Below the pieces are notes generated by a model, which ran no database searches, was not told where the DNA came from, and worked only from the letters and a program-made list of their open reading frames with translations. This document shows, in pieces, positions 12,716 to 62,695 of a DNA stretch of 64,000 nucleotides. Made by a program: the position numbers and the translations under genes. The DNA is from Intrasporangiaceae bacterium URHB0013 (lineage in GTDB: Bacteria; Actinomycetota; Actinomycetes; Actinomycetales; Dermatophilaceae), in assembly GCA_000620545.1 (NCBI GenBank), contig JIBA01000019.1, positions 1 to 64,000 on the forward strand, given 5' to 3'. The stretch's first letter is position 1. The number at the start of each line of letters is the position of its first letter.

Positions 12716-12721
12716 GTTTGA

Positions 12722-12885
12722 CCTCTCGACGCCTACGAGGTGAGCTGTCGGGTTCGGGCTGGAGGTACTGCCCGGCCTTCGCTCGGACCAGGTTCGGTCC
12801 ACGGAGGGCTTCACCCCAAGAGCGTCTCTCGACGCCCGGAGAAAGTGGTTCCCCCGCTCCTGCCGTTGCGGTTCGTACTGAGCCC
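12722..12885 (-). ncRNA. c-di-AMP riboswitch (ydaO/yuaA class)
   Basis: In the leader of the NlpC/P60 gene, read leftward, the conserved blocks of this class appear in order: a 5' block with GGAGCGGGGGAACCA, a central TTGGGGTGAAG, and a 3' block AGCCCGAACCCGACAGCTCA followed by CCTCGTAGGCG. The 3' end lies 7-10 nt before the ribosome site, so ligand binding could act on transcription or translation; in known members c-di-AMP lowers expression. In actinobacteria this class commonly precedes cell-wall hydrolases, as here. Boundaries are approximate. Confidence 0.93.
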
Positions 12886-12952
12886 CAGGTCGATGGCAGG
12901 ACTCGGCGGTCCGACCCGGGGCACTCGCTCGACGGGGAGAGCAAGTTCGCCC

Positions 12953-49772: not shown

Positions 49773-49828
49773 CCCGCCGCACCGTCCGGTACGAACGTCG
49801 CCCGACGCGCGGAGACCAGGACGGCCGC

Positions 49829-49864
49829 ACGACGACCCCGAGGCCCATGCCTCGGGGTCGTCGT
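49829..49864. terminator. Long bidirectional hairpin between a membrane-protein gene and nuoN
   Basis: A perfect 16-bp stem (49829-49844 with 49849-49864) with loop CCAT, 2 bp beyond the nuoN stop. It terminates the rightward gene and the leftward nuo operon. Confidence 0.8.
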
Positions 49865-49866
49865 CG

Positions 49867-51453
49867 TCAGCCGAGGAGGCGCAGCAGCAGGTCGGGCTGG
49901 ACACTCACGACGACCAGCACGGCGGAGGCGAGCACGAGGCCCGCGACCATGGCCGGACGACGTCGGCCCGACCGGGCACCGCTCCGGGCCCGTGCGATGT
50001 CGGGTTCGCCGTCGGACTCGCCGTCGGGTGCGGTGATGACGGCGCGGAGCCAGCGCAGGTAGACGGCGACACCGATGACGGCGTTGACCGCCGCGACGAC
50101 CGCGAGCCAGACCCAGCCCTCGGCGACGACCGGCCGCAGGGCCGTGACCTTGCCGACGAGCCCGATGACGCCGGGCGGGAGGCCTGCGAGCGAGGTCAGC
50201 GCGAGAGCGAGGGCGCCGGCGCGCCAGGGGTGGCGCTGCCACAGTCCCTCGTAGGCGGCGATGGAGCGGCCGTCGCCGGGCCGGTCCTGCAGCGTGACGG
50301 CGACGACGGCGAAGGCCACGAGAGTCGCGACGACATAGGTGAGCAGGTAGGTCGCGCTCGCGCCGACCCCGAGCGCCGAGATGCTGACGAGCGGCAGCAC
50401 GACCCAGCCCGCCTGCGCGACCGTCGACCACGCGAGCAGGCGCACGACGTCGTCCTGGCGCAGGGCCATGACGTTGCCGAGCGTCATGCTGAGCGACGCG
50501 AGCACCGCGATCGACAGGAGGGCGGGCGTCCCGAGCGCCGCCACGGCCCGCAGCACGACGAGCAGCGCTGCGAGCGCGGCGACCTTGGAGACCGTGGCGA
50601 GGAAGGTCGCGATGGGCACGGACGAGCCGGCATATGCCGTGGGCGTCCACGCGTGGAAGGGCACGAGCGAGAGCTTGAAGCCGACCCCGGCGATGACGAG
50701 GACCGTGGCCAGACCGACCACCCCGGCGGACGTGGACGGGAAGACGACGGTGGACGGGCCTCCGGGAGCCGCCGTGAACGCGCCCCCCGACGAGAGCGCT
50801 GCGTCCGGGGTGAGGAACGGGCTGCCCGTCGCCGTGAACCAGAGCGCCACCCCGAGCACGAGCAGGGCGAAGGAGACGAGGGACGTCACGAGCAGCTGCG
50901 TGGCGCCTGCCACGGCAGACCGTCGACCCGAGAGCGCCACGAGCGCGATGACGGGCAGGGTCGCGAGCTCGAGGGCGATGAGCCAGGTCCCGACGTCACG
51001 GCTGGCCGCCACGACGACGGTGCCGGCCAGCGCCGCGAGGAGCAGCACGGCCTCGACCGGCTCACGGGTGCTGTCGGCGGGGCGGCGACGGCGTGTGGCG
51101 GGCCAGGCGAGAGCGATGCAGACGAGGGCCGAGATCGCGGCGGCGAGCTGGAGGGTGCCGCCGAGGGCGTCCGCCTGCCAGAGGCACACCTGCGACACGC
51201 CGTCGATGGTCGGCGCCGCGCCGGCGGCGACGTCACGACCGGTGAGGCAGAACGTCTCGCGCGTCGACCCGCCGCCCAGCGCGAGCCCGGGCACGGCCGC
51301 GGCCGCGGCTCCGAGCGCGGCCAGCCCGGCGATGGCGTACGGCACGCGACGCAGGCGGGGGTTGACGAGGTCCACGGCGAGCACCAGGACGAGGCCCGCG
51401 ACCGGCAGGAGCGCCGGCAGGAGGGTCGCGTAGTCGATGGCGAGGCCGTTCAC
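49867..51453 (-). CDS. nuoN: NADH-quinone oxidoreductase-type subunit N
   Basis: 528 residues, about 14 membrane segments; an antiporter-like proton pump subunit of complex I. GVGFKLSLVPFHAWTPTAYAGSSVPIATFLATVSKVAA (pumping Lys and Pro-kinked helices) and AWSTVAQAGW are diagnostic. GTG start overlaps the nuoM stop by 4 nt. Last gene of the operon; a 16-bp hairpin follows. Confidence 0.93.
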   Translation of the reverse strand: MNGLAIDYATLLPALLPVAGLVLVLAVDLVNPRLRRVPYAIAGLAALGAAAAAVPGLALGGGSTRETFCLTGRDVAAGAAPTIDGVSQVCLWQADALGGTLQLAAAISALVCIALAWPATRRRRPADSTREPVEAVLLLAALAGTVVVAASRDVGTWLIALELATLPVIALVALSGRRSAVAGATQLLVTSLVSFALLVLGVALWFTATGSPFLTPDAALSSGGAFTAAPGGPSTVVFPSTSAGVVGLATVLVIAGVGFKLSLVPFHAWTPTAYAGSSVPIATFLATVSKVAALAALLVVLRAVAALGTPALLSIAVLASLSMTLGNVMALRQDDVVRLLAWSTVAQAGWVVLPLVSISALGVGASATYLLTYVVATLVAFAVVAVTLQDRPGDGRSIAAYEGLWQRHPWRAGALALALTSLAGLPPGVIGLVGKVTALRPVVAEGWVWLAVVAAVNAVIGVAVYLRWLRAVITAPDGESDGEPDIARARSGARSGRRRPAMVAGLVLASAVLVVVSVQPDLLLRLLG

Positions 51454-52955
51454 GGCGACACGCCCAGACCGGACAGCAGGCCCGTCGTGGCGGTATCCGA
51501 GAGACCGAGCAGCAGGTGTGGCAGCACCCCGAGCACGACGATGACGACCACGAGGACCATGACGACAGCCCAGCGCGGGCCTCGTGCGTCAGCGACCGGC
51601 TCGGCGGCAGCGCCCACGGCCGCGTCGCTGCCCTCCCCGGCCCAGACGATCCGGGCGACGCGCAGCGCGTAGGCCGCCGCGAGCGCGAGTCCCACGGCGC
51701 CGAGCACGACGCAGGCGCGCAGGAGCGCGACGGGACGGTCGGGCGCGGGCGACCACGCGGCATACAACGCGAGGAACTCACCCCAGAAGCTGACGAGGCC
51801 GGGGAGCCCCAGCGCTGCGGCCAGGCCGACGACGAGCGCCAGTCCGAAGCGAGGAGCCTTGTCGCGCAGGGCCGCACGGGCCACGTGCAGGTCGGAGGAC
51901 CCCCACTGCTCCTTGAGGTCACCGACGACGAAGAAGAGCAGGGCGGCGACCACACCGTGCGCGATGTTGCCGAAGAGCGCCGCCTGCAGGCCCGTCTCGC
52001 TGCCCGAGGCGATCGCGAGCGCCACGAAGCCCATGTGCGCCACCGAGCTATAGGCGATGAGCCGCTTGAGGTCGCGCTCGACGAGGCAGGCCAGGCCTCC
52101 CCAGAGGATGCCGACGACGCCGAGGAGCGCGAGCACCGGGCTCAGCCGGGCCACGCCCTCGGGGACGGTGGGGACGGCGAGCCGGACGATGCCGTAGGTG
52201 CCCATCTTGAGCAGCACGGCCGCGAGCAGCACCGAGCCGGCCGTGGGCGCGATGGTGTGGGCCGAGGGCAGCCACGTGTGCAGCGGCCACAGCGGCACCT
52301 TGATGCCGAGCCCGAGCAGCAGCATCGCGGCGATCGCGACCTGGAGCGGACGCGAGAGGCCCGCACCGTGGCGCTCTGCGAGGACGGCGAGGTCGCTCGT
52401 GCCCTGGTGGTGGACGAGGAAGAGGATGCCGACGAGCATCAGCGTCGAGCCAAGCACCGTGAAGAGGACGAAGCGGCCGGCCGCGTCGGCCCGGGTCTCG
52501 TCGGCCACGTGGTCGTCACCGAAGCGGCGCACGAGCACCCACATCGGCACGAGGACCACCTCGAAGGCGATGAAGAAGAGGATGGCGTCGCGCGCCATGA
52601 ACGTCGCGAGGGCCCCCGCCTCGACGAGCAGGACGCAGCCGAGGAAGGTCGACCCGGTGCCTCCCCTGGGGATCGGACCGGAGAGGGCGTGGGCGACCAC
52701 GGCGACGGTCAGCAGGGCGGTGAGCAGCACGAGCGCCGCCGAGACGCCGTCGACACCGAAGTGCCACCGGACGCCGAGCGAGCGGATCCACGGCACGTCG
52801 ACCTCGTGGCGGCCGGAGACGACCACGACAGCGAGGACGGCTGTGACGACGGTGGATCCGAGCGCGATGCCGCGCTCGACCGTGGACTCACCGGGGATCG
52901 CGATCAGGGCGATCGCCGCGAGCAGCGGCAGCAGGAGCATGAGGGTCAGCGCCAT
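51450..52955 (-). CDS. nuoM: Complex I subunit M
   Basis: 501 residues from ATG 52955. Antiporter-like subunit with the Glu of TM5 in FIAFEVVLVPMWVLVRRFG, the pumping Lys in LGIKVPLWPLHTWLPSAHTIAPTAGSVLL and AYSSVAHMGFVALA. The start lies inside the last codons of nuoL (10-bp overlap). Confidence 0.93.
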   Translation of the reverse strand: MALTLMLLLPLLAAIALIAIPGESTVERGIALGSTVVTAVLAVVVVSGRHEVDVPWIRSLGVRWHFGVDGVSAALVLLTALLTVAVVAHALSGPIPRGGTGSTFLGCVLLVEAGALATFMARDAILFFIAFEVVLVPMWVLVRRFGDDHVADETRADAAGRFVLFTVLGSTLMLVGILFLVHHQGTSDLAVLAERHGAGLSRPLQVAIAAMLLLGLGIKVPLWPLHTWLPSAHTIAPTAGSVLLAAVLLKMGTYGIVRLAVPTVPEGVARLSPVLALLGVVGILWGGLACLVERDLKRLIAYSSVAHMGFVALAIASGSETGLQAALFGNIAHGVVAALLFFVVGDLKEQWGSSDLHVARAALRDKAPRFGLALVVGLAAALGLPGLVSFWGEFLALYAAWSPAPDRPVALLRACVVLGAVGLALAAAYALRVARIVWAGEGSDAAVGAAAEPVADARGPRWAVVMVLVVVIVVLGVLPHLLLGLSDTATTGLLSGLGVSP

Positions 52956-54859
52956 GCGGTCACCCCCAGGACGGCGACGAGCACGACACCCGCGAGCAGG
53001 CTGAGCAAGGACAACGACGGCACGGCGCGGTGGCCGCGCTCCCCCGCCCGGCCGGCGGCTCGCGCCACGACGGCCGTCGCGCGTGGGTAGGCGTCGACGA
53101 CGTCGCGGTCGAGCACCACGACGAGACGCGCGACCGCGGTGACGGCCCGGCCGATTCCGACGTATGCCGTGTCGACGCCGAAGCCGCGCACGGCTGACTC
53201 GCGGACACGGACGGGGATGCGGTCGGCCACGTCGAGGCGACCGCGGTCGCTGACGGACCACACGGCATACGCGGCGCCGGCGACGAGCAGCAGGGACAGC
53301 AGCGAGCTCACGAGGCCGAGGTGGAGGCCGCCGCGCAGGGTGGTGAGGAAGAGGGTGCCGACGAGGGTCAGTGCCGCGAGCACCGACACGACGAGCGCGG
53401 CCGAGAGCGTGATCGCCGCGTGGCCGTGGGCGTGCACGCGCTCGACCTCGGCGTCGTCGGCGCTGTCGGCGGTGGTCACGACCGCGACGTGCTCTTCGGC
53501 GACGACTGCCGGGGCGGCTTCGGGTAGCTCACCCGACGCCGCCACCGCCGTGTCGAGGAGCAGCCAGGCCCGGGCGCAGTAGGCGGCCGTGAGCGCGACG
53601 GTGACGAAGAGCGCGACGACGACGAGCCAGGCGCGCAGGCCGCCCCCGGCCGTCGCGCCCTCGAGCGCTGCGTCGATGACGGTGTCCTTGGTGAAGAAGC
53701 CGATGAGCGGCGGCACCCCGGCGAGGGCGGCGAAGCCCATCCCCATCGACCACCGCAACGCGCCGGTGGGGCGCAGCCGGCCGCGCAGGGCCGCGAGGGC
53801 GGTCGCACCGGCGAGGACGGAGAGCCAGCCGGCGCCGAGGAAGAGCAGCGCCTTGAAGAACGCGTGACCGATGAGCTGCGAGATGCCGGCGCCCGGACCG
53901 AGCTCGGCGGGCGCCGCGGCCAGGGCGGAGAGCATGATGGCGACCTGGCTCAGGGTCGAGTAGGCGAGCATCCGCTTGAGGTCGGTCTGTGCCAGCGCGA
54001 GCATGGCGGCATAGACCATCGTCACGGCGGTCAGGACGGCGAGCAGCGTGCGCGCACCGTCGTGCTCGGCGTAGAGGCTGAAGAGGCGCGCGATGACGTA
54101 GGTTCCCGCCGCGACCATGGTCGCCGCATGGATGAGGGCCGAAGCAGGGGTCGGGCCCTCCATGGCGTCGGGAAGCCAGTCGTGGAAGGGCACGAGACCG
54201 GACTTGCCCGCGACGCCGATGATGATGCCGACGAGGCCGACGGTCAGCAGCGTGTCGTCACCGCTCGCCGTGAGCACCGCCATGAGGTCGGTGGAGCGGG
54301 CCTGCACCGAGAGCGCCACGATGCCGACGACCATGGCGATGTCGGCCACGCGCGTGACGAGAAAGGCCTTGTAGGCGGCCCGTCTCGCCGCCGGGCGCTC
54401 GCTGTCGTGGCCGATGAGCAGCCACGAGCACCAACCCATGACCTCCCAGCCGATGAGCAGGAGGACGAGGTCGCCCGACTGGACGAGGAGCAGCATCCCG
54501 GACGCGAAGAGCGAGACGGTCGCGGCGAACTGGCCGTAGCGAGGGTCGTCGCGCAGGTACCACGCCGTGAAGACCTGGATGCCCAGCACGACGAGCGCGA
54601 CGACGAACGCGACCAGTCCGGAGAGGCGGTCCGACAGCAGGTGCAGCGGTACCGACAGGTCACCGAGCGGGAGGCTGCCGATGGTGGTGATGTCGGCGGT
54701 GCGCGACGGGGCGACCCACTGGACGAGTCCGAGCACCGCGACACAGGCCGACACCGCGACCGCGATGACCGAGGCGAGGCTTCGCTGGCGCCGGGCGAGC
54801 AGCCCTGCCAGGGCCGCCAGCGCCGGGAGCACGACGATCATCCGCACGATCCAGCTCAC
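52946..54859 (-). CDS. nuoL: Complex I subunit L
   Basis: 637 residues from GTG 54859, overlapping the nuoK stop by 4 nt. Conserved LLLIGWEVMGWCSWLLIGH (TM5 Glu), GKSGLVPFHDWLPDAMEGPTPASALIHAATMVAAG and AYSTLSQVAIML. The C-terminal part carries the amphipathic lateral helix region, with a His/Glu/Asp-rich loop (ERVHAHGHAA, residues about 480-500). Confidence 0.93.
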   Translation of the reverse strand: MSWIVRMIVVLPALAALAGLLARRQRSLASVIAVAVSACVAVLGLVQWVAPSRTADITTIGSLPLGDLSVPLHLLSDRLSGLVAFVVALVVLGIQVFTAWYLRDDPRYGQFAATVSLFASGMLLLVQSGDLVLLLIGWEVMGWCSWLLIGHDSERPAARRAAYKAFLVTRVADIAMVVGIVALSVQARSTDLMAVLTASGDDTLLTVGLVGIIIGVAGKSGLVPFHDWLPDAMEGPTPASALIHAATMVAAGTYVIARLFSLYAEHDGARTLLAVLTAVTMVYAAMLALAQTDLKRMLAYSTLSQVAIMLSALAAAPAELGPGAGISQLIGHAFFKALLFLGAGWLSVLAGATALAALRGRLRPTGALRWSMGMGFAALAGVPPLIGFFTKDTVIDAALEGATAGGGLRAWLVVVALFVTVALTAAYCARAWLLLDTAVAASGELPEAAPAVVAEEHVAVVTTADSADDAEVERVHAHGHAAITLSAALVVSVLAALTLVGTLFLTTLRGGLHLGLVSSLLSLLLVAGAAYAVWSVSDRGRLDVADRIPVRVRESAVRGFGVDTAYVGIGRAVTAVARLVVVLDRDVVDAYPRATAVVARAAGRAGERGHRAVPSLSLLSLLAGVVLVAVLGVTAWR

Positions 54860-55293
54860 GACGTGGCCTCCCGCGCCGCCGCTGCAGCCTCGCGCCCGGT
54901 CTCGGGGGCAGCGACGGCGGCGTCGCGCGCGTCGGCGTCGGGGGCGTCGGCGACGTCCGCCTCGTCGGCGCGCTCCTCCGGGGTGTCGTCGGTGAGGTCG
55001 GGTACCGCGGTGAGGTCGATGTGTCCCGAGCGGCGGAACATCACGAGGATGATCGCGAGTGCCACGGTGATCTCGGCCGCGGCGATGGTGATGACGAAGA
55101 GCGTCAGCACCGGTCCGGCCGAGAGGGGTGCGCCGGGGCGCGATCCAGCCGTGACGAGCAGCAGGTTGGCGGCGTTGAGGACGAGCTCGACCCCGATGAG
55201 CACGAGGACGGCGTTGCGGCGGGCGAGGACTCCGTAGACACCGAGCCCGGCGAGCAGCGCCGCGAGGGCGGCGGGCAAGGAGAGGTGGATCAT
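54856..55293 (-). CDS. nuoK: Complex I subunit K with C-terminal extension
   Basis: 145 residues. Three membrane helices with the two proton-path Glu residues (LIGVELVLNAANLLLV and AAAEITVALAIILVMFRR). The normal length is about 100; the final ~45 residues are an acidic, Ala/Asp/Glu-rich tail probably in the cytoplasm. ATG start overlaps the nuoJ stop by 4 nt. Confidence 0.93.
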   Translation of the reverse strand: MIHLSLPAALAALLAGLGVYGVLARRNAVLVLIGVELVLNAANLLLVTAGSRPGAPLSAGPVLTLFVITIAAAEITVALAIILVMFRRSGHIDLTAVPDLTDDTPEERADEADVADAPDADARDAAVAAPETGREAAAAAREATS

Positions 55294-55856
55294 CGGCGCT
55301 CGCCCGCCGGCGCGCCCGCGGTGACGGGGCGGCGATCCTCGGCGCCCTCACGGTGCAGGACCAGCCGCGACACGGCGAAGGCGCCGATGAGCGCGACCAG
55401 GAGCAGCACCGAGAGCAGCTCGAAGGGCCAGACCCACGTGCCGAAGACGGCCTGCGCCACCTCCGGCGTCGTCGTGGTCGGGGTGTCGAGATCGGCCGTC
55501 GCTCCGGAGAAGAGCGGGAGCAGCAGCGACCCGAGCAGCACGGTCGTCGCGGCTCCGAGCAGGGCGCCGGCGACGCGCTGCCACCACGGGGTGTCGATCT
55601 CGGCATGAGGACCGATCGGGGCCCGGGTCAGCATGAGCGCGAAGAGCACGAGCACGACGATGGCGCCGACGTAGACGAGCAGCTGGACCAGGCCGACGAG
55701 CTCCTGACCCAGGACGAGGTAGGCGCCCGCCAGGGAGCCGAGGGACACCAGCAGCCAGAGGGCCGCGTGGACGACGTGCTTCGTCGTCACCGACAGCAGC
55801 GCCGACAGGGCCGTCACAACACCGACGGCGGTGAAGACGAGGTCGCGGGTCGTCAC
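55290..55856 (-). CDS. nuoJ: Complex I subunit J
   Basis: 188 residues from GTG 55856. Five membrane segments with the conserved [17 protein letters not shown] pi-bulge helix of TM3. Overlaps nuoI by 4 nt upstream. Confidence 0.92.
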
Positions 55857-56659
55857 TCGCGCTCCTCGTCGGTCGACACCGTGGGCAGCACCTGCGTCGA
55901 GTCCCCCTGTGCCGAAGCCTGGTCCGCAGCCTCCTCGGCCTGCGCGCCGTCGGCGGGTGGGAGGAGCGCGGACTGCTCCGCCGCCGGCTGGCTCGCCGTG
56001 CGCCCGGCCGCCGCGGGCATGACCCGCGTCTGCTCGGCCTCGGGCGCCGGTACGGCGGTCGCCGACGTGGCCTCCCGTCGCACCCGGGCGGGGCGGGCAG
56101 CGGCGCCGGCCCCACGCGTACCACCCGCGGCGCCGGCCACCCCGGCGGAACCCCGAGGAGGTTTGGCGGCGGCCGTCACCTCGGCGGGGTCGGCGCTCCC
56201 CGGGTCGAGCGCCGGAGGTGCCGGGACGGTGGCCATCCAGGCGCCGAGGCGGTCCTTCTCGTGGAGCAGGTCGCGGATGTCCAGCTCGGCGTACTCGAAC
56301 TCGGGGCTCCAGTGCAGGGCGTCGAAGGGGCAGACCTCGATGCAGATCCCGCAGTACATGCAGAGCGAGAAGTCGATGGCGAAGCGGTCGAGGACGTTGC
56401 GCTGACGCGCACGTCCCCCCGGCGTCGTCGGAGGCAGCTCCTCCTTGTGCGAGTCGATGTAGATGCACCAGTCGGGGCACTCACGGGCACAGAGCATGCA
56501 GGAGGTGCAGTTCTCCTCGGTCAGCGCGATGACGCCACGCGACCGCGGCGGCAGCGCGGGCGAGACGTCGGGGTACTCGGCCGTGTGCGTGTGCCGCGTC
56601 AGCGACCTCGCCGTCGTGGCGAGCCCCTTGACGAGCCCCGGCAGCATGCCGTCAGCCAC
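55853..56659 (-). CDS. nuoI: Complex I subunit I (two 4Fe-4S clusters) with long C-terminal extension
   Basis: 268 residues from GTG 56659 (GGAGG about 9 nt upstream). Two ferredoxin motifs, [15 protein letters not shown] and [18 protein letters not shown], carry clusters N6a and N6b that pass electrons toward NuoB. The Fe-S core ends near residue 155; a ~110-residue Ala/Pro/Glu-rich low-complexity tail follows, absent from ordinary NuoI. With NuoG and NuoF missing, this subunit could be the direct electron entry point, for example from ferredoxin. Confidence 0.92.
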
Positions 56660-56680
56660 GCCTCCCCACCTCCCCCTCCA

Positions 56681-56951
56681 CCGTCGAAAGGCCAAAGTCT
56701 GCGCCCACCGCACCGTCGAGAGGCCAAAGTTCGTGGGGTCGGCGCGGTCGAGAGGTCAGTTTGGCCGGGACGGGTCCTGGCCACTCGACGGTCCGGGGGC
56801 CGCGAAGTTCGGCCACTCGACGGTGATGGGGCCGCAGAGTTCGGCCTCTCGACGAGCCAGAGGCCGCGAAGTCTGGCCTCTCGACGGAGGTGGGGCCGCA
56901 GACTTTGGCCTCTCGACGGTGGCGGGGCCGCAAAGCTTGGCCTTTCGACGG
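56681..56951. repeat. Nine-copy 32-bp repeat array (three inverted, six direct) between nuoH and nuoI
   Basis: A 13-bp core recurs at exact 32-bp steps: CCGTCGARAGGCC-type at 56681, 56713 and 56745 (the third degenerate), and its reverse complement GGCCWCTCGACGG-type at 56779, 56811, 56843, 56875, 56907 and 56939. A second block in each unit, GGCCGCRRAGTYT, lets every unit fold into a small hairpin. The array fills the only substantial gap in the operon, about 300 bp, between nuoH and nuoI; the last unit touches the nuoH stop codon. Confidence 0.92.
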
Positions 56952-56956
56952 TGGGG

Positions 56957-57925
56957 TCATGGGTGAACCACCACCCCGACGGCGGTCAGCGCTAGCTGGA
57001 AGAGCGCCATCGGCACGAGCCACATCCACGCGAGGCGCTGCAGCTGGTCCTCGCGCATGCGCGGCCAGGACACCCGCAGCCAGATGACGACGACCGCGAC
57101 GAGGAAGCCCTTGAGCAGGGTCCAGAGCCAGCCGAGCCACTCCTCGAGAGGCCCGGACCAGCCGCCGAGGTAGAGCACGGCGAAGAGCAGGGACATGACG
57201 ACGATGCCGGCGTACTCGGCGAGCAGGAAGAACGCGAAGCGCAGTCCGGTGTACTCGGTGAACGCGCCGAAGACGATCTCCGAGTCGGCCAGGGGCATGT
57301 CGAAGGGTGGGCGCTGCAGCTCGGCGAGGGCGGCGACGAGGAAGACGACCGCGCCGGGCAGCTGCCAGACCAGCCACCACGGGTTCCACGCCTCGGCGAT
57401 GCCGACCAGGGACAGGGTGCCGGCCGCGAGGGCGACGGACGCCACGGCCAGGACCATCGGCAGCTCGTAGGAGACGAGCTGGGCGGCGGCGCGCATCGCG
57501 CCGAGCAGGGAGTACTTGTTGGCCGAGGCCCAGCCCGCCATGAGCGTGCCGATGATGCCGACCCCGATGACCGCGAGCACGAGCACGACGCTCGCGTCCA
57601 CGTCGGCACCGACGACCCGCGGCGACAGGGGGATGACGGCGAGTGCGACGAGGTAGGGGATGAGAGCGACGAACGGGGCGAGCCGGAAGACCCAGCGGTC
57701 GGCCCGGGCCGGGGTGATGTCCTCCTTCTGGACGAACTTCACCCCGTCGGCGACGAGCTGCGCCCACCCGTGGAAGCCTCCGGCATACATCGGCCCGAGG
57801 CGGCCCTGCATGTGCGCCATGACCTTGTGCTCCGTCTGACCGACGAGCAGGGGCAGGACGAGGAAGGCCGCGAGCACGGCCACGGCACGCAGCACGACCT
57901 CGAGCCACGGCGACAGGTCGCTCAT
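56957..57925 (-). CDS. nuoH: Complex I subunit H
   Basis: 322 residues from ATG 57925, overlapping the nuoC stop (ATGA). Eight membrane segments with VGQTEHKVMAHMQGRLGP, ADSEIVFGAFTEYTGLRFAFFLLAEY (quinone-channel Glu residues) and LLKGFLVAVVVIWLRVSWPRMREDQLQRLAW. It normally forms the quinone chamber together with NuoB and NuoD; NuoD is not encoded here. The protein is shorter than average (about 330-400). Confidence 0.94.
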   Translation of the reverse strand: MSDLSPWLEVVLRAVAVLAAFLVLPLLVGQTEHKVMAHMQGRLGPMYAGGFHGWAQLVADGVKFVQKEDITPARADRWVFRLAPFVALIPYLVALAVIPLSPRVVGADVDASVVLVLAVIGVGIIGTLMAGWASANKYSLLGAMRAAAQLVSYELPMVLAVASVALAAGTLSLVGIAEAWNPWWLVWQLPGAVVFLVAALAELQRPPFDMPLADSEIVFGAFTEYTGLRFAFFLLAEYAGIVVMSLLFAVLYLGGWSGPLEEWLGWLWTLLKGFLVAVVVIWLRVSWPRMREDQLQRLAWMWLVPMALFQLALTAVGVVVHP

Positions 57926-58449
57926 CGCGGTCCCCACTCGGGACCGGGGACGCCGGGCGCCTGCACGCGCCGCCGGCCGGGGGCGCGGGCGGAGTCGTGC
58001 CCCTCGCCGGGCTCCTTGGCGCCCGGCCACGCCTTCGAGGCACGGGCGGCGAGGACGAAGGACTTGCGCAGCGGCGTGCCCTCGAAGCCGTCGGGGAGCA
58101 GGAGCGGTCGCAGCCCGAGCCCGCTGCCGTCGTCGAAGCCGTCGAACTCGATGCCGAACATCTCGTGGGTCTCGCGCTCGTGCCATGCCGCGCCGCGGAA
58201 GATCCCGGTCAACGACGGCACGGGCAGCCCCTCGGAGACGCGGGTGCGCAGCAGGACGGACACCAGTGCACCCGGCTGGCGGGTGTCGAGCAGGTGGCAG
58301 ACGATGTCGAAGCCGGCGTCGTCACCGTCGCGGTCGGTCTCGTCGACGGCCGTGAGCCAGTCGAAGTACGCGTAACCCTCCTCACGGAGCGACAGAACCG
58401 TGCTCAACCACTCCCCGGAGGGCACGTCGCGCACGTCGGTGACCCTCAC
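57922..58449 (-). CDS. nuoC: Complex I subunit C
   Basis: 175 residues from GTG 58449, overlapping the nuoB stop. The 30-kDa-subunit signature [16 protein letters not shown] and [18 protein letters not shown] is present. No NuoD domain is fused to it: the protein ends in a ~40-residue Arg/Pro/Gly tail. The expected nuoD gene is absent from the junction with nuoH. Confidence 0.92.
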
Positions 58450-59138
58450 TGGCCACCCTCCCCCGGCTTCACACCTCGGCGCAGGAGGGGGCGACGGAGG
58501 TCACCGGCGCTGCCGACGCGAGTGCCCGCATACCGTCCCTTGAGCTTCTGCGCCGAGAGGCGCTCGGTCGCGATCTGCTCCTGCAGGCGGATGATCCCGT
58601 GGAGCAGCGCCTCGGGACGCGGTGGGCAGCCGGGGACGTAGACGTCGACGGGGACGATCTGGTCGACGCCCTTGGTGACCGAGTAGGAGTCCCAGTAGGG
58701 GCCGCCGGAGTTGGAGCAGGCGCCGAAGGAGATGACGTACTTCGGCTCGGGCATCTGGTCGTAGAGGCGGCGGATCGCCGGTGCCATCTTGTCGGTGACG
58801 GTGCCCGAGACGACCATGAGGTCCGCCTGGCGCGGGCCGGGGGCGAAGGGGATGACCCCGAGGCGGATGAAGTCGTGGCGGCCCATCGAGGCGGCGATGA
58901 ACTCGATGGCGCAGCAGGCGAGCCCGAAGTTGAAGACCCACAGGGAGTAGCGACGCCCCCAGTTGAGCACGACCTTGATCGGCTTGGGCGCATGGCTGCC
59001 GAGCACGCCCACCGATGCGGGCCCGATGGTCGGCATCGGCAGGCTGACGGGCCGGCTGCTCGACGCGCTCGACGCGCTCGACGCGCTGGACGGGCTGGAC
59101 GGGCTGGACGGGCTCGGCGGGCTCGGCGGCTGCTCCAT
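58446..59138 (-). CDS. nuoB: Complex I subunit B
   Basis: 230 residues from ATG 59138, one base inside the nuoA stop (TGATG), with GAGGTGGG upstream. All four cluster-N2 cysteines are seen: the CC pair in [17 protein letters not shown] and [10 protein letters not shown]. An N-terminal ~30-residue Ser/Pro/Ala run comes from a 9-bp tandem repeat. N2 is the last cluster before quinone in complex I. Confidence 0.94.
59058..59129 (-). repeat. Eight-unit 9-bp tandem repeat at the start of nuoB
   Basis: Eight contiguous nonamers on the plus strand: three GCTCGACGC, three GCTGGACGG and two GCTCGGCGG. They encode the Ser/Pro/Ala N-terminus of NuoB in steps of three residues, so copy-number change preserves the frame. 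Confidence 0.9.
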
Positions 59139-59497
59139 CACACCCACCTCAGCAGGCCGCGGCGACCCGCGTGGGCCAGGCCCAGCACGATGACACCGAT
59201 GAAGATGCCCATCTCGACGAGGCTGGCGCGGCCCAGCTCGGCGTCGCGGATGACGGTCGCCCAGGGGAAGAGGTAGATCGCGTCGACGGCGAAGATGACG
59301 TAGAGGAAGGAGAAGACGAAGTAGCGCACCTTCGTCTGGGCCCAGCCGTCGCCGACCGGGTCGACGCCGGACTCGTACGTCGTCAGCTTGGCCGCGTGCG
59401 CGGCCCGCGGTGCGAGCAGTCGTCGCACGACCATCGCTGCCGTGACGAGCAGGACGCCCGCCCCCAGCACCGCTGCGACGGCCACGTACCCGGACAT
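59138..59497 (-). CDS. nuoA: Complex I subunit A
   Basis: 119 residues from ATG 59497; an in-frame ATG at 59515 would include the -10 element. Three membrane helices with the conserved [13 protein letters not shown] loop and [22 protein letters not shown]. First gene of the operon; TAGGCT 7 nt before the ATG indicates a leaderless mRNA. Divergent from korA. Confidence 0.92.
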
Positions 59498-59720: not shown

Positions 59721-61615
<1,895 letters not shown>

Positions 61616-61619
<4 letters not shown>

Positions 61620-62695
61620 CCACTGACCTGGGTATGCCGCTCCGCTCCGCGAGCGTCCCCGGCACCGCGGGCGTGCCCCGCCTTCCCGACGGGACGGCGC
61701 TGACGAAGAAGGACTTCACGTCCGACCAGGAGGTGCGCTGGTGCCCCGGTTGCGGCGACTACGCGATCCTCGCCGCCGTGCAGGGCTTCCTGCCCGAGCT
61801 CGGGCTCAAGCGGGAGAACATCGTCTTCGTCTCGGGCATCGGGTGCAGCTCGCGCTTCCCGTACTACCTCGACACCTACGGGATGCACTCGATCCACGGT
61901 CGCGCCCCCGCCATCGCGACCGGACTGGCCGCGACCCGGGAAGACCTGTCGGTCTGGGTCGTCACCGGTGACGGCGACGCGCTGTCGATCGGCGGCAACC
62001 ACCTCATCCACGCGCTGCGCCGCAACGTCAACCTCAAGATCCTGCTCTTCAACAACGAGATCTACGGCCTGACGAAGGGGCAGTACTCCCCCACCTCGCA
62101 CGTCGGACAGGTGACGAAGTCGACGCCCCTCGGGTCGCTTGACACGCCCTTCAACCCGGTGTCCCTGGCGCTCGGCGCCGAGGCGAGCTTCGTGGCCCGC
62201 ACCATGGACTCCGACCGCCAGCACCTGACCTCGGTGCTGCGTGCCGCGGCCGAGCACCGCGGCTCCGCACTCGTCGAGATCTACCAGAACTGCCCGATCT
62301 TCAACGACGGCGTGTTCGACGTCCTCAAGGACCGCACCGAGGCAGCCGCCCGGATCCTGCACCTCGCCGACGGCGAGGAGGTCGGAGCCGGTGACGGCGT
62401 CGTCGTCCGCGACGACCGGGGCTCACTGTCCGTCGTGCCGCGGGCGCAGGCCGATCCGGCCCGCATCGTGCGCCACGACGTCTCGGCCGAGGACCCGTCC
62501 GCGGCGTTCGCGCTCTCGCGGCTCGACAGCCCGGACCTCGGTCACGTGCCGATGGGGATCTTCCGCAACGTGCAGCGCCCGACCTACGACGACTCCCTGC
62601 GTGAGCAGATCGCCTCGGCTCGCACCGGCGAGGTCACCGATGCCGACATCGACGCCCTGCTGGCGGGGCGCGACACCTGGACCGTGGGGGCGTGA
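61616..62695 (+). CDS. korB: 2-oxoacid:ferredoxin oxidoreductase, beta subunit
   Basis: 359 residues. TPP-binding subunit: VVTGDGDALSIGGNHLIHALRRNVNLKILLFNNEIYGLTKGQYSPTS holds the Mg-TPP GDG...NN motif. Cysteines WCPGCGDYA and GIGCSSRFP, plus a later Cys (NCPIFNDGVF), fit the single 4Fe-4S cluster of KorB. Coupled to korA upstream and to a transporter gene downstream (GTGA overlap). Confidence 0.94.

Follow-up and report, generated by a model that had tools for sequence, protein, structure and literature searches.

REP/BIME elements (GTAG and CGTC superfamilies) are interspersed palindromes which hug stop codons, lie mostly in gaps between convergent or unidirectional genes, occur as inverted pairs and form several families per genome (PMC3733652). 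Tagged REPs are described there predominantly in Proteobacteria, and the word 'Actinobacteria' was not found in the text of that paper that was searched. Hairpin terminators lacking U tracts, which are reportedly common, offer a second comparison, the two-way types being likewise inverted repeats within tens of bases of a stop codon (PMC8355165).

The repeats described here were met in a stretch of 64,000 nucleotides (the window; contig JIBA01000019.1) of the soil-dwelling Intrasporangiaceae bacterium URHB0013, the genome of which falls in the same GTDB genus as Terrabacter tumescens. They are best read as a lineage-specific family of REP/BIME-like interspersed inverted repeats lying a short way past stop codons, for the most part in gaps between convergent genes. 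In the broad sense of REP/BIME the likeness holds, palindromes being numerous in intergenic DNA at the 3' ends of genes and often paired in inverted orientation, and, as in the CGTC superfamily, there is no dedicated transposase (PMC3733652). By contrast, the arrangement in which an unpaired CGTC or GTAG tag precedes a hairpin of 8-9 bp is missing (PMC3733652). Of the 172 interior units of this genome, 4 have GTAG on either strand; 161 have CGTC, but here CGTCGA pairs with TCGACG inside the palindrome and single arms fold poorly, so that the unpaired tag, 8-9 bp stem, 4-5 nt loop and CCA tail of the CGTC superfamily were not found. The present family also differs in having half-palindrome units repeated every 32 bp in tandem, and in its Dermatophilaceae host. 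Since the placement matches, but the superfamily-defining marks were sought and are lacking, the family is REP-like, not a REP. RAYT-driven REPs were rejected as an identity, as the RAYT (Y1 transposase, PF01797) has no match in any of nine genomes of the genus (one only 74% complete), and was detected in 5 of 14 control genomes.

Unlike the two-way terminators lacking U tracts (PMC8355165), the family is repeated, sequence-conserved and has tandem arms, and its role in termination is putative. No earlier description of it was recognised among the papers listed by searches of open-licence literature. The uptake sequences of Neisseria and Haemophilus, which occur as inverted pairs at terminators, are similar in that a short conserved word is inverted at gene ends and has lineage dialects; by contrast, the present family has far fewer copies, is organised in arrays and has no known link to uptake. 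As an actinobacterial gene-end family, without the usual transposase and with tandem arms in a fixed 32-bp register, it opens the question of how actinobacteria end transcription between convergent genes.

The array between nuoH and nuoI

The nuo array comprises nine 32-bp units (56681-56951), three inverted then six direct, in the interval between nuoH, which ends to its right, and nuoI, the called start of which is 33 nt to its left. Gene calls are from a purpose-built codon model, not annotation. The features are:

56681-56757, minus strand: left arm of three 32-bp units, cores at 56681-56693, 56713-56725 and 56745-56757
56758-56778, no strand: centre between the arms; longest perfect stem 9, z -2.9, no good palindrome
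56779-56951, plus strand: right arm of six 32-bp units, cores starting at 56779, 56811, 56843, 56875, 56907 and 56939
55853-56647, minus strand: nuoI (4Fe-4S protein), from the first ATG, with an in-frame GTG a further 12 nt upstream
56957-57925, minus strand: nuoH (NADHdh, PF00146), with its stop codon 5 nt from the array

All nine core starts and their orientations are as given in an earlier, sequence-only reading of this DNA. That reading took the 13-bp core, GGCCWCTCGACGG, to be present nine times at exact multiples of 32 bp; the core is perfect in just five units (56713, 56779, 56811, 56875 and 56907), with three others having one mismatch and one having two, and the multiples of 32 bp hold within each arm, not over the inversion, where the step is 34 bp. 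The core with two mismatches, the third of the left arm (56745-56757), scored under the threshold of the array caller, and the stem at the centre was measured between the 56713 and 56779 units.

Taken singly, the core does not exceed chance in the window: with up to two mismatches it has 25 matches, compared with a shuffle mean of 19.6, and 13 of 100 shuffles were as high. The array itself exceeds chance, because it has TRF scores of 184-236 and because the two-unit pattern, GGCC..TCGACG-N20-GGCC..TCGACG, has 78+47 matches in the genome, as against 0+0 for the reversed control pattern.

The tight packing proposed for the other nuo genes is seen in overlaps of 4-10 bases, and does not extend to nuoA and nuoB, which by our gene calls are separated by about 100 nt. 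The array may possibly decouple nuoA-H from nuoI-N, as had been suggested; the 33 nt between the array and the called nuoI start would leave scant space for a separate promoter.

The nuo cluster (49867-59497) comprises nuoA, B, C, H, I, J, K, L, M and N, with the A-, B-, C-, H-, I-, L- and N-type proteins assigned by Pfam and J, K and M by place; the interval between nuoC and nuoH is without genes, and nuoD-G are therefore absent at this locus. The cluster is adjoined by genes of the 2-oxoacid:ferredoxin oxidoreductase type (59721-62695; the first was Pfam-checked), and a second nuoH, 39% identical, is present about 22 kb further on the same contig. At 59058-59129 a 9-bp repeat, GCTCGACGG, occurs eight times in the stretch by which the longest nuoB ORF extends 5' beyond the called nuoB start.

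Copy number, anatomy and placement of the family

The nuo array is not unique, but one copy among a family of inverted repeats. Of the earlier suggestion of a mobile repeat family, the part borne out is that of a dispersed family: the genome-wide search gave at least 35 arrays; this is a lower bound, as arrays were delimited in stretches around listed matches, and 5 of the 35 are without an exact two-unit pair. All 125 exact two-unit matches fall within these 35. Allowing one mismatch, a 17-mer core of the unit gave 85 matches (control 0); allowing three, a 19-mer gave 207 (control 4).

The basic element is the palindrome CGTCGANNGGCC...GGCCNNTCGACG, half-palindrome units of which repeat in tandem at 32 bp to give arms pointing outward. 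The minus-then-plus order is usual, being present in 24 of the 26 two-armed arrays of this genome, and thus the inversion at nuo, previously taken as a sign of rearrangement, requires no local rearrangement. The alternative then raised, a BIME-like origin, agrees with the arrays in both layout and placement. A perfect central stem of 17-23 pairs is present in 10 of the 24 minus-plus arrays; folding of the centre is weaker in larger arrays, that at nuo included (Spearman 0.82 over 24 arrays, with centre length as a confounder). In 28 of 37 distinct palindromes, the two variable bases of the core are matched by exact complements in the other half (mean 9.6 and maximum 19 in 2000 shuffles).

Within an arm, 153 of 168 steps in the own genome measure exactly 32 bp, as do 89 of 95 among those of 30-34 that were retained for relatives; the spacing across the centres of arrays shows no phasing. 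The spacers differ at 3.39 positions per 20 within the same arm, at 8.20 between opposite arms of one array and at 7.82 between unrelated arrays. This likeness within arms, not between arms or arrays, fits growth of the arms by tandem duplication.

The placement of the arrays is strongly skewed: 21 of the 35 have convergent neighbours, 13 tandem and 1 divergent, compared with 8 convergent pairs among the 57 pairs of adjacent genes in the window (Fisher p 7e-6 for the enrichment). Of the 70 gene ends next to an array, 55 are stops, which lie a median of 12 nt away (45 of them at 30 nt or less); the other 15 are starts, at a median of 103 nt. The same skew is seen in relatives, where a first tally (42 arrays minus 3 of the own genome, with the additional L084 array left unclassed) gave 22 convergent, 16 tandem and 1 divergent, and a second gave 12, 10 and 1, respectively (n=23). 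All of 20 simple palindromes, picked from the 70 of the scan across the taxonomic family, follow one or more stop codons at a distance of no more than 80 nt.

An inverted repeat with a 16-bp stem at 49773-49866, between convergent genes, is outside the repeat families seen here, showing that these are not used at every convergent gap. Single genes lie beside or between arms at L048, L057 and L053 and at the orthologous loci L065, L066, L091, L081 and L129; named by eye, they are hydrolase-like, AbiEi-like and metal-binding-receptor-like. For the hydrolase-like and AbiEi-like genes, related genomes conserve the arrangement of minus arm, gene and plus arm, which in the AbiEi-like case extends to Humibacillus. 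That these are gene cassettes or invertible segments was rejected, since synteny shows whole-locus orientation only and no inversion.

Turnover and dialects in related genomes

An exact-pattern scan of the species collection, from which the own genome was possibly excluded, returned 20 stretches, belonging to Terrabacter, Humibacillus xanthopallidus and a single Dermatophilaceae MAG, and tandem pairs are present in 7 of 9 genomes of the genus. The palindrome pattern extends to 19 of 149 genomes of the taxonomic family (12 of 53 genera), often as a single match, with 19 in one genome (G034); the reversed control gave one match in each of 3 genomes. Carriage of the repeats by viruses was rejected, no viral contig being matched by the corrected pattern.

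The comparison of nuoH-nuoI spacing that had been proposed as a check reveals turnover at this site. Among 8 Terrabacter genomes, the array is present in 4 (261-315 nt), a remnant in 1 (108 nt) and the site is empty in 3 (39-42 nt); outside the genus, no units were found in any of 11 orthologous junctions. Two orthologous convergent sites, at which repeat families were assigned by eye, were compared in 8 genomes each. At one, inverted repeats are present in all 8, 5 being of the array family and 3 of a TCGAGTG..CACTT family; at the other they are present in 7, 5 being of the array family and 2 of an unrelated TTTCGCGCGC family, with a gap of 5 nt in the remaining genome. Such swaps for other inverted repeats open the question of what selection preserves, structure or sequence.

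The patterns of the two replacing families occur in 9 (TCGAGTG..CACTT) and 4 (TTTCGCGCGC) of the 149 genomes of the taxonomic family, with no matches for the controls. Of 20 loci fetched for them, 19 were classed (L245 was dropped): the TCGAGTG..CACTT family is convergent at 6 of 8, and the TTTCGCGCGC family at 3 of 11, with 2 more divergent, so the latter is less closely bound to stop codons, which counts against a role in ending transcripts. At one locus (L227, G000:C2:16700-20700) five TCGAGTG..CACTT palindromes lie within about 680 bp in a gap between tandem genes.

The spacer consensus is of a CCGC-AACTTT-like type in the own genome, G005 and G008, a GGCC-ACGT-like type in G002, G006 and G007, and a further type in Humibacillus. 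Using part of the relatives' arrays, nuo units were assigned to the model of the genome they came from in 6 of 6 cases for the own genome, 5 of 5 for G006, 0 of 1 for G004 and 1 of 3 for G007. When one locus at a time was left out, the proportion of units returning to the genome of origin was 113 of 124 for the own genome, 42 of 61 for G069, 19 of 34 for G006, 17 of 30 for G007, 5 of 13 for G008, 1 of 26 for G005 and 0 of 5 for G004; judged by these return rates, the spacer dialects are clade-like rather than species-specific.

Folding and candidate roles

On the transcript strand, the whole nuo spacer is predicted to fold as one two-arm hairpin (-191.7 kcal/mol, z -8.2), so that one large structure is supported by the folding model. 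The earlier proposal of a hairpin in each unit found no support in this genome, as the right arm alone barely beats shuffles (z -0.95) and the left arm fails to (z +1.09). Among three two-unit consensus strings, that of the own dialect is shuffle-like (z -0.84), compared with z -4.7 and -3.5 for two related dialects, and unit folding may therefore differ between clades. Genome-wide, the median z is -11.1 for two-armed arrays (n=26) and -1.6 for one-armed arrays (n=9, range 0.3 to -5.2), which have up to eight units and were folded on the plus strand. The little structure in the latter indicates that hairpins are not the whole role of the arms; predicted hairpins would account for the two-armed copies, but not for the persistence of most one-armed ones.

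We lean towards the array as a putative two-way transcript-end element, in which the hairpin would make or mark the 3' end of transcripts arriving from both directions, either by two-way termination or by 3'-end protection, and in which the arms would arise by tandem duplication. At nuo, such an element is probably not operon-specific and would most likely act as a partial terminator or processing hairpin, lowering nuoI-N relative to nuoA-H; a full terminator would silence nuoI-N, which counts against this role. So does the U-tract consensus scan, which gave no intrinsic terminator site at the array, although a G+C-rich hairpin is present. Further points against it are that, of the one-armed arrays between tandem genes, 17 point towards the stop of the upstream gene but 6 in the other direction (orthologues were not collapsed, and the 6 include a five-plus-one array and the partly seen nuo array of G004), that spacers in opposite arms of one array are no closer than those of unrelated arrays, and that the core, GGCC..TCGACG, is conserved beyond the need for pairing, albeit that its detection itself required the core.

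Two other readings are serious rivals to a transcript-end role. In one, a sequence-specific protein would bind the DNA of the units at intervals of three helical turns, acting as a roadblock or as a nucleoid or topology factor where convergent transcription accumulates supercoils. The core common to Terrabacter and Humibacillus, the near-invariant 32-bp steps within arms and the persistence of mostly unstructured one-armed arrays all speak for such a protein. We nonetheless consider it unlikely, since the conservation of the core is partly built in, the core being the search word, the spacing is unphased across the centre, and one specific protein would not explain why unrelated inverted repeats substitute at orthologous sites. 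The exactness of the steps is also less telling than it appears: 14 of 167 are off 32, compared with 272 spacer differences in 96 pairs, a proportion fairly close to what neutral indels could plausibly give. Alternatively, the palindromes may spread and the arms grow by slippage, without benefit and tolerated only behind stops. Presence versus absence at the nuo site, the likeness of same-arm spacers (3.39 against 7.82 for unrelated arrays), the clade dialects and the weaker centres of larger arrays, with the confounding by centre length noted above, are in keeping with this selfish or mutational origin. It is made doubtful by the lack of a Y1/RAYT transposase match in the nine genomes of the genus (that at 74% completeness included), by arms conserved at one orthologous locus in Terrabacter and Humibacillus, by the matched changes in palindromes and by the occupation of the same sites by other inverted-repeat families.

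That the nuo array evolved as a specific regulator setting the ratio of nuoA-H to nuoI-N is very improbable; it does lie between nuoH and nuoI in 4 of the 8 Terrabacter genomes, but is missing or a remnant in the other 4, and 34 further arrays of the family are elsewhere in the genome. A composite proposal, in which several competing inverted-repeat families of Terrabacter-like genomes replace each other at convergent ends, with dialects homogenised within clades and a dedicated protein treating the arms, phased at 32 bp, as polar stops to transcription, is considered a long shot.

A known RNA family was rejected as the identity of the array, Rfam 15 (gathering score) giving a match in the window elsewhere only; this sole match is a c-di-AMP riboswitch (RF00379, 60.5 bits) at 12718-12894 on the minus strand.
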